32,671 nucleotides of DNA from a virus: the IMG/VR virus record IMGVR_UViG_3300009605_000069, positions 1 to 32,671 of that record; one strand, written 5' to 3'. The notes beneath the pieces are model-generated. The model was not told where the DNA came from. It saw nothing but the letters and a program-made list of their open reading frames with translations, and made no database searches. Both the position numbers and the translations under genes were made by a program. Shown one piece after another: positions 1 through 31,955 of the stretch (the first letter of the stretch is position 1; the number at the start of each line of letters is the position of its first letter).

Positions 1-744
1 ACCTCCAGCACCACCTCCACCTGCAAAACTTCTACCAGTTACAGCAGATAATATTTTCTCAAGTAAACTGATTACTTGATTTTCTTTGTGTTTTATTTCG
101 CCTTGTCTTTGTTCGCCTTCTCTTCTTATTTCTGCTGATTCTGATGCACTGGTAGATGTAGTAGATGAACCGCCTACTGAATCAAGTTCTGCTTGTGCTT
201 GTTTTAATTTAAGGTTTGCTCTATTTCTTTTTGATGAGGGTTCTCCAGAGCCGGGTGCATCTCCTCCTAATGCCCAATCAGTAAAGTTTGCACCAAATAT
301 TGTTTTGAATATACCAGCACCAAACATGTCAGACTGAGGCATTACACTGCCCATTTTAACTTTCGCCGCTCTAGTAGAACCAGTCGCAAGAGAGTCGGCA
401 AGTTCTGTTATATAATCCCCTTCGATTCCACCTTGGCCAGAAGCAATGGCCGCGATATCTTTTGCTCGTATTTGGATTTGTCTAAGTCTGGCAGAATCTG
501 CATCTGTGCCTTCTTTTACTAGGTTATCTAATTCTTCTTTTAATACTTTACTCGAAGCAGAAAGTTTGCCATCTTCTTTGTCAAATAAAGCAGTTAGATA
601 TGCTTGTGTTTCAGCAACTTCACCAATAATATCTCGAATTGATTCCTTACCCAACTCATGAATAGTCATAGTAGCGCGAACACCCTCTTTGGCTTCGGCT
701 ACCCTTTGTTGCAATTCTTCAATTCTGTTTTTTATATCTGCCAT
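1..744 (-). CDS. Probable tail tape measure / gp29-like protein, N-terminal part
   Basis: The reading frame opens with ATG at 744 on the minus strand and stays open for 248 codons to the window edge, so the C-terminus is missing. The visible part begins MADIKNRIEELQQRVAEAKE, an amphipathic coiled-coil start. It continues with long helical, Ala/Glu/Lys-rich segments, then a Gly/Ser/Glu-rich linker and a poly-Gly run at the edge. No catalytic motif is visible. It is the gene directly downstream of the gp26 and -1-frame pair, the place where tailed phages put the tape measure, which sets tail length and threads the tube. This identity rests on position and helical character, not on recognised homology. 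It could instead be another hub-associated structural protein. Confidence 0.5.
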   Translation of the reverse strand, partial: MADIKNRIEELQQRVAEAKEGVRATMTIHELGKESIRDIIGEVAETQAYLTALFDKEDGKLSASSKVLKEELDNLVKEGTDADSARLRQIQIRAKDIAAIASGQGGIEGDYITELADSLATGSTRAAKVKMGSVMPQSDMFGAGIFKTIFGANFTDWALGGDAPGSGEPSSKRNRANLKLKQAQAELDSVGGSSTTSTSASESAEIRREGEQRQGEIKHKENQVISLLEKILSAVTGRSFAGGGGAGG

Positions 745-751
745 ATTTTAT

Positions 752-886
752 TTATTGTTGTTGATGTCTGACTGTTCTTTCATTTTGTTCTTTGACAAAT
801 TTGTGTAACAATGATATATAAATTTCTCTCTCCCAAGGTATCATATTTTCTAATTCTTCTAGTGAATAGTTATGGTGATGCATCAT
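752..886 (-). CDS. Small PWER-motif ORF in -1 frame to gp26 (probable tail chaperone extension)
   Basis: Read alone from the tandem ATGs at 886 and 883 it encodes 44 residues starting MMHHHNYSLEELENMIPWER and ending in HQQQ, with stop TAA at 752-754. No Shine-Dalgarno sequence precedes these ATGs. The frame is open upstream across the end of gp26 and is exactly -1 to it, so slipping on the T run at 940-946 would join gp26 residue 239 to 62 further residues (codons 940 down to 755), giving about 301 in all. The compact 'PWERxIY' helical segment resembles short proteins I recall next to gp26 in T4-like phages, but I cannot confirm that. The position, after a gp26-like gene and before the probable tape measure, matches tail assembly chaperones. 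Whether it is made alone, as a fusion or both is inference. Confidence 0.65.
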   Translation of the reverse strand: MMHHHNYSLEELENMIPWEREIYISLLHKFVKEQNERTVRHQQQ

Positions 887-933
887 CTGAAAATTGAGTT
901 TATAATAAACTACAAGACATTCATGAGAGAGGC

Positions 934-1656
934 TTAGAGAAAAAAATCTCGAATACCTCCTAAAATCATTTTATTCTTTTTTTTGCATTTTCTACACTCA
1001 AAATTAACAGTATGACGAAGTTCTGGCATAGTTTCAAAGAATTTTAATATACTATCGAATTGTTTGTGAGTAAGTTCTCCAACAAATTTAATTAATTCTT
1101 CTATAGAATAATCTTCTGATTTGTATACATTTTCTCCATCATAAATTGTTTCTATACAACATGCAATCGCTTCAAAACTTTCCGCATCTGGATTTAATGG
1201 GTCATCAATTACAGAAGATGCCATTTCGATAGTTGGATATTTCATTATTATTCCTCTATCTGATGAAAGTTCAATTTTATTTGTGTGTCCTTTATGAGTC
1301 TTTAATTTGATTTTTGTCAAATCAATTTCCACTGGATTTGATTCTCCACAGTGTTTACATGTTAATTCGGGTGTGGATGTTTCCCCTACAGATTTTGCTC
1401 TGATGTTTATAAACATAAAACATAAATCTGGTATTGATAATTCTTCAGGGTTTAATGTTCCATATGTACAATTAGAAATTACACCTTTAAGTGCTGTTAC
1501 TATTTGTTCTATTTCTGCACTTTCAAGTGCCATCAATAATATTTTTTCTTCTTTTACTATAAAAGGTCTAAATTTAACCTTCTTTTTACAAGCCGGTAAA
1601 GTTATAGAATACTCTGGTAGTATTGGTTTAGGTAAAGTTATTGTTTTTGTTGTCAT
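934..1656 (-). CDS. gp26: gp26-like baseplate hub / tail assembly protein
   Basis: This 240-residue protein has the T4 gp26 family signature near its N-terminus: a proline-rich start, then LPEYSITLPACKKKVKFRPF and FIVKEEKILLMALES. T4 gp26 has about 208 residues. Two CxxC pairs (Cys100/Cys103 and Cys221/Cys224) could form one split zinc ribbon. The protein is needed for hub assembly in T4, and in lambda-like terms it occupies the place of the shorter tail chaperone. It lies 17 bases downstream of gp54 on the same strand, and its last codons carry the frameshift signal described separately. The ATG at 1656 follows an AGGAG-less but purine-containing leader (GGAGAATTATA), which is adequate for initiation. 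The family call is strong; the chaperone role is inference from gene order. Confidence 0.85.
   Translation of the reverse strand: MTTKTITLPKPILPEYSITLPACKKKVKFRPFIVKEEKILLMALESAEIEQIVTALKGVISNCTYGTLNPEELSIPDLCFMFINIRAKSVGETSTPELTCKHCGESNPVEIDLTKIKLKTHKGHTNKIELSSDRGIIMKYPTIEMASSVIDDPLNPDAESFEAIACCIETIYDGENVYKSEDYSIEELIKFVGELTHKQFDSILKFFETMPELRHTVNFECRKCKKKNKMILGGIRDFFL
940..961 (-). other. Candidate programmed -1 ribosomal frameshift site
   Basis: On the minus strand the last codons of gp26 read GAT TTT TTT CTC TAA. The seven Ts at 946-940 form an in-frame X XXY YYZ heptamer (T TTT TTT). A perfect AGGAGG lies at 961-956, nine bases before the run, close to the spacing of the stimulatory internal Shine-Dalgarno in E. 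coli dnaX. No ATG, GTG or TTG follows AGGAGG at a usable initiation distance, so the element is not explained as a ribosome binding site. After slipping, reading continues TCT CTA AGC into the small PWER ORF. I saw no strong downstream stem-loop. Confidence 0.6.
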
Positions 1657-31577: not shown

Positions 31578-31955
31578 ATGTTAAATTTTAAAAAATATTT
31601 AAGAGAAAGTTTAAAAGAAGCGGCAGAATCGGCGAAGACCCCTGCGCCCATCAAGATACCGTGTGAATTTGAAGGACATTGTGCTTGGGTGATGAATCCT
31701 TGTTGTTTGATAGATAAAAATGGTCAATGTGTTGCTTGTTTTGAAGGATGGTGTTGTTGCAATGAAGACTGCGAATATGACCACATTGAATCCCACAAAC
31801 CAGGCGCCACCCCAAGATGTTGTATTGAGAATACTTGCAACTGCATTAACCAAGATGGTACGGATTGGATTGCTTCCCAGAACCGGCCGCAAGCACAGAA
31901 AGGTGCAATGGTGGCGCCATCGGATGCAATATCAAAAAATGTAAAAGAATTATAA
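31578..31955 (+). CDS. Cysteine-rich small protein with capsid-targeting-like leader
   Basis: The 125 residues include 14 cysteines between residues 29 and 89, among them a CCC run and two CC pairs. The N-terminus MLNFKKYLRESLKEAAES is amphipathic and resembles the leader of T4 internal head proteins (IPIII begins MKTYQEFIAEA), which the gp21 protease removes after Glu. Here a cut after Glu10 or Glu14 would be plausible. If correct, the protein could be packaged in the head and injected with DNA; otherwise it is a metal-binding or disulphide-rich virion protein. AAGGAG supports the ATG. The stop shares a base with gp16. No known family recognised. Confidence 0.65.
   Translation: MLNFKKYLRESLKEAAESAKTPAPIKIPCEFEGHCAWVMNPCCLIDKNGQCVACFEGWCCCNEDCEYDHIESHKPGATPRCCIENTCNCINQDGTDWIASQNRPQAQKGAMVAPSDAISKNVKEL

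Follow-up and report, generated by a model that had tools for sequence, protein, structure and literature searches.

A probable −1 frameshift at the end of gene 26 as the source of a G/GT-type tail assembly chaperone in marine T4-like phages

The tail assembly chaperones of phage lambda (gpG/gpGT), HK97 (gp13/14) and P2 (E/E+E') consist of a short form and an extension added by −1 frameshifting, and the gene that follows theirs is long and occupies the tape measure position. In E. coli dnaX, −1 frameshifting takes place at a slippery homopolymeric run with an internal Shine-Dalgarno (SD) sequence some 10 nt ahead of it, and a downstream hairpin is known as well. Vladimirov et al. in 2022 reportedly identified the tail assembly chaperones of T4-like phages, which in T4 are gp26 and gp51. 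The review by Atkins et al. 2016 (PMC5009743) describes tail frameshifting as widely conserved 'except T4'. T4 gp26 and gp51 are listed as hub assembly chaperones (PMC3004832), of which gp51 is essential but does not form part of the particle. Sullivan et al. 2010 (PMC3037559) reported that gp51 of cyanophages and marine vibriophages is without its first ~200 residues. A GTTTTT motif and an open −1 frame likewise end the short chaperone gene at the tail chaperone locus of the Vandenendeviridae and Andersonviridae, which are other phage families than those of the gp26 phages (PMC12846349). The passages of two articles that cite Vladimirov et al. 2022 refer to T4-like phages with a short and a long fused gene (PMC10885494) and to poly-T −1 signals in 'TAC-N genes of T4-like phages' (PMC12846349). 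Going by these passages, poly-T −1 sites in T4-like phages are already credited to that work, so we do not claim the discovery of the mechanism. An earlier note on the DNA studied here, which knew of no T4-like phage described with it, is by the same passages probably out of date on this point. The frameshift case described below is a well-supported addition to a known mechanism.

The window, i.e. the whole stretch of DNA that was analyzed, comprises the 32,671 nucleotides of IMG/VR virus record IMGVR_UViG_3300009605_000069. At its start the minus strand encodes, in the order of transcription, a gp4-like head closure gene, a gp2-like gene, a tube-like gene, gp26, a small ORF and a long ORF. 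The features at the gp26 end are the following:

934–1656, minus strand: gene 26, zero-frame product of 240 aa, putative short, G-like chaperone form (PF12322, E = 2e-60; phrog_150, E = 7.6e-65).
956–961, minus strand: AGGAGG, putative internal SD-like stimulator, 9 nt (955–947) before the slippery site (sequence; SD-like pairing above that of synonymous-codon shuffles).
940–946, minus strand: slippery heptamer T TTT TTT, in frame (T TTT TTN in 87/87 loci; codon-choice bias).
934–936, minus strand: zero-frame stop TAA, separated from the heptamer by the 3 nt CTC (sequence; relatives).
752–946, minus strand: −1 frame coding part, T-like, 'gp51' in cyanophage annotation, joining gp26 in a predicted fusion of 301 aa (phrog_634; −1 codon periodicity in relatives).
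884–886, minus strand: first ATG of the −1 ORF, preceded by no SD-like sequence and unnecessary under frameshifting (sequence).
1–744, minus strand: start of the next gene, the rest being cut off by the contig end, candidate tape measure protein (position; visible glycine-rich and hydrophobic make-up).

The 3' end of gene 26 reads GA[T TTT TTT] CTC TAA. No stop is found in the −1 frame from 970 to 755. Its translation, FFSLSLSHECLVVYYKLNFQMMHHHNYSLEELENMIPWEREIYISLLHKFVKEQNERTVRHQQQ, terminates at the TAA at 754–752 and comprises 64 residues from the heptamer with FF counted, corresponding to 62 codons beyond FF. The predicted junction peptide of the window fusion is ...RDFF-SLSLSHECLVVYYK. 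The ATG pair of the small ORF (886–881) lies 48 nt downstream of the gp26 stop, without an SD-like sequence. The earlier note had placed the in-frame heptamer at 946–940, AGGAGG nine bases upstream of it and the end of the 62-codon −1 frame at 752–754, and these coordinates are right. An Rfam search of the window gave no match.

The 10,254 codons of the window genes (window GC 36%) contain 89 in-frame X XXY YYZ heptamers of any kind, six of them no more than 12 codons from the end of their gene. T TTT TTN was counted in frame three times, the gp26 copy being the only one close to the end of a gene. When the stretch holding the −1 frame was shuffled by mononucleotide, the frame remained free of stops in 0.46% of the shuffles. 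With several heptamers lying toward the ends of window genes, the heptamer by itself was unconvincing and relatives were examined. The case from the single sequence is no more than suggestive.

Loci were obtained from an IMG/VR scan with a gp26-only alignment, from an earlier scan and from named phages, which gave 87 loci including the window. They were chosen by gp26 homology only, and two records identical to the window (L002 and L003) were left out. The gp26 alignment of the Vibrio and rhizobial phages was too varied for a scan of the collection. Removal of loci with >90% identity left 80 non-redundant loci. T TTT TTN was present at the same place in 87/87 loci, the last codon being TTC in 66, TTT in 20 and TTA in one, and the zero-frame stop followed 0, 3 or 24 nt past the heptamer. 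The −1 frame was open through the PWER region in all 87 loci; the contig of one of them (L075) stops within the T part. At the level of sequence, this conservation across 87/87 loci settles the reality of the arrangement.

Among the 80 non-redundant loci the first Phe codon is TTT without exception (nominal P = 6.5e-11 at the genes' usage), TTC accounting for 25% of the Phe codons elsewhere in these genes, and the codon preceding it ends in T in every locus (nominal log10 P of −16); both values are nominal, as the loci are related and independence is overstated. FF and G are conserved residues, and part of the motif follows from coding. The variable codon position is that of frame 0 before the heptamer and that of frame −1 after it. 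Right after the stop the −1 frame exhibited a third-base entropy of about 1.4–1.5 bits versus 0.7–0.9 bits for the second base. The overlapping −1 ORF thus appears to be conserved and under protein-level selection from the slippery site onward. Codons 2–19 of the −1 frame are conserved (consensus RIxLSHxxLENYYxTNFA), yet 50 of the 80 loci have no ATG before codon 20, and 38 have no ATG, GTG or TTG. Consequently, these codons must be reached from gp26. In P-SSM2 the predicted junction peptide is ...LQSFF-RISMAHEDLESYYK.

SD-like pairing in the interval some 17 to 8 nt ahead of the heptamer had a mean best value of −6.45, compared with −4.83 (sd 0.14) in synonymous-codon shuffles. None of 200 such shuffles equalled the observed pairing, and the z score of the position was about −12 (80 loci). 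In a control segment 60 nt farther upstream no SD-like excess was observed in the 80 loci. Judged by these shuffles, the strength of the internal SD-like element goes far beyond what the protein sequence requires. The AGGAGG of the window is a strong copy of this element (−11.1 kcal/mol). The arrangement is like that of dnaX in having an internal SD before a one-base slippery run, and would work alike with no family relation; dnaX has an A-run read by tRNA-Lys, whereas the marine gp26 genes have a U-run read by tRNA-Phe.

The downstream hairpin signal was mild overall, with a mean z of −1.1 at +11. Strong hairpins ~5 nt past the heptamer were found in some lineages (P-SSM2, −14.6 kcal/mol; S-PM2, −13.5 kcal/mol); the window has little downstream hairpin, and in many other loci it is weak or absent too. 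The downstream hairpin, strong in P-SSM2, S-PM2 and their kin, is thus not required and was rejected as a general stimulator. No correlation was observed between SD strength and downstream folding energy. In loci L010, L011, L080 and L090 the heptamer is followed within a few nt by strong hairpins whose registers differ and which are absent in other cyanophage lineages.

We assign a probability of about 0.9 to the reading that a tail assembly chaperone of G/GT type is made by −1 frameshifting at the gp26 end. Alternatively, translation of the small ORF might be independent, through re-initiation or translational coupling beyond the gp26 stop, without formation of a fusion. A separate gp51 is annotated in many records, and the gp26 stop overlaps an ATG (TAATG/TGATG) in Vibrio phi-ST2 and EniLVp02 and in Rhizobium I1_9 and phiM9; however, these phages retain T TTT TTN as well. 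The conserved −1 codons ahead of the first ATG in 50/80 marine loci, the distance of the window ATG from the stop, the position of the conserved SD-like element in front of the slippery site and the occurrence of the linker within a single ORF in T4 also argue against separate translation, which we consider improbable. The earlier note had proposed to ask whether the T-run, the AGGAGG spacing and the open −1 frame are conserved in marine relatives; the T-run and the open −1 frame are present in all 87 loci, and SD-like pairing at this position exceeds that of shuffles. As observations that would count against frameshifting it had listed an intact small ORF without the slippery run, a −1 stop between the run and the small ORF, and a conserved ribosome binding site for the small ORF. 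None of these was found among the marine loci, in which a conserved SD-like element precedes the slippery site instead. In some Vibrio and rhizobial loci (L095 2486, L101 3193, L103 2462 and L094 2498) the T-run and the stop/ATG overlap occur together, and coupling and frameshifting may both act there.

RNA polymerase instead of the ribosome could slip on the T-run, which has seven T's in the window and eight in some relatives. Against this, the T-run of 61/80 loci has only six T's before a C, rather few for slippage of the polymerase, the heptamer always keeps the same codon phase, and the SD-like element lies at a ribosomal distance; transcriptional slippage is therefore slightly less credible still than separate translation. 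That a slippery-looking gp26 end arose by chance beside a decayed or mis-sequenced gp51 gains a little from the AT-rich window, where in-frame heptamers turn up close to gene ends with some frequency, but the identical arrangement in 87/87 loci and in named isolates of different laboratories makes the chance of this negligible.

The gp26 of the window scored 204.6 bits against PF12322 (curated cut-off 24.5). The −1 product matched phrog_634 ('baseplate hub assembly catalyst' gp51) with E = 1e-24 and 88.1 bits when the linker was included, and with E = 3.7e-17 and 63.6 bits when it was not. T4 gp26 and gp51 both belong to PF12322. T4 gp26 (208 aa) spans positions 14–235 of phrog_150, and T4 gp51 (249 aa) spans positions 13–280, i.e. 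a gp26-like domain and the T part in one ORF. The Pfam domain covers residues 1–201 of T4 gp51, and in hhalign the −1 part with its linker aligned to residues 200–244, the same C-terminal part. Thus, on this comparison T4 gp26 and gp51 are paralogues that match the short and the long form. In T4 these are two genes on opposite strands without a frameshift, whereas the marine phages have one gene with a −1 site.

PF12322 copies were counted in complete named relatives, the window's record being only a 32.7-kb fragment. Two copies were found in T4, PM2 and IME13. S-PM2, P-SSM2, Mosig, phiN3, phiM9, I1_9, OLIVR5, phi-ST2, EniLVp02 and Desulfovibrio 7757 have one copy, and all ten possess T TTT TT[C/T/G] and an open −1 frame. 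Nine T4-type gp26 genes have no T-run and no T part following and are a natural control; T4 gp26 retains FF, spelled TTC TTT. One copy was also found in three Ackermannviridae-like phages (L097 ~3175, L098 ~3223 and L102 ~3244), which have CTTTT[C/T] in place of T TTT TTN and whose −1 frame, open after gp26, encodes a T-like part of another kind (YNSMMPWHLMSL).

The AlphaFold2 model of gp26 had a pLDDT of 90.7. The −1 part was modeled as two helices, the first of which begins at the slippery site. When 559 PDB chains were realigned to the gp26 model, the best were 3fgx, 2ob9 (HK97 tail assembly chaperone) and 3klu (yqbN) with Z = 7.8, 7.6 and 6.8, none reaching 8; the next, unrelated chains had 5.1 and 3.5. 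The matches to 2ob9 and 3klu cover the N-terminal ~90 residues of gp26. Foldseek E-values of the gp26 model to the chaperones were not significant, no sequence similarity of gp26 to the chaperones in the PDB was detectable, and searching the PDB with sequence profiles of gp26 and the T part yielded chance matches only. With moderate support, the predicted gp26 fold therefore best matches known tail assembly chaperones, its N-terminal part resembling that of HK97. Different from lambda, HK97 and P2 are the site T TTT TTN, the larger N-terminal protein (about 240 aa) and an extra beta-rich part. The assignment of gp26 and the small ORF as G and GT parts, made in the earlier note, is supported by the T4 comparison and by this predicted fold. 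The next gene is complete in L002 and encodes 753 aa; a family search with it gave no family match. From its position and make-up it may encode the tape measure protein.

We propose that gene 26 and the small ORF, whose product generally goes by the name 'gp51' in cyanophage annotation, form a single gene for a G/GT-type tail assembly chaperone. The majority of ribosomes would end at the TAA at 936–934 and release the G-like gp26. A fraction would pause at T TTT TTT, helped by pairing of AGGAGG with 16S rRNA and, in some relatives but hardly in the window, by a downstream hairpin. Both tRNA-Phe would then move back by one base, and reading of 62 more codons would give the GT-like fusion of 301 aa. 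By analogy to lambda, the gp26 part would coat the tape measure protein, tube subunits would be recruited by the helical C-terminal part, and both parts would leave before the tail is completed. The model explains why gp51 of cyanophages and vibriophages appears truncated by ~200 residues.

A more far-reaching idea, which we regard as possible rather than probable, is that one-gene frameshifting is ancestral in the T4-superfamily, and that T4 and its close kin switched to gene duplication, the slippery run having been lost from gp26 while the fused form persists as gp51; on that reading neither the breadth of the mechanism nor its SD-like stimulator, nor the reason for the 'truncated' gp51 of cyanophages, would have been described so far. 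The order of frameshifting first and duplication later is suggested by the distribution. Such an ancestry would span Kyanoviridae, Pelagibacter, rhizobial, KVP40-like Vibrio and Desulfovibrio phages. With both solutions within one superfamily, the marine relatives open the swap between frameshifting and gene duplication to direct study. T4-like myoviruses are among the most abundant viruses of the ocean, and their records give gp26 and a 'truncated' gp51, or nothing, at a locus whose functionally important protein is probably the fusion. In the records of S-CAM7, S-CAM4, ACG-2014b, ACG-2014d and Syn2 the T part is present with nothing annotated at that place. Elsewhere in the window, a short, very cysteine-rich ORF (31578–31955, plus strand) lies directly before a small terminase-like gene.
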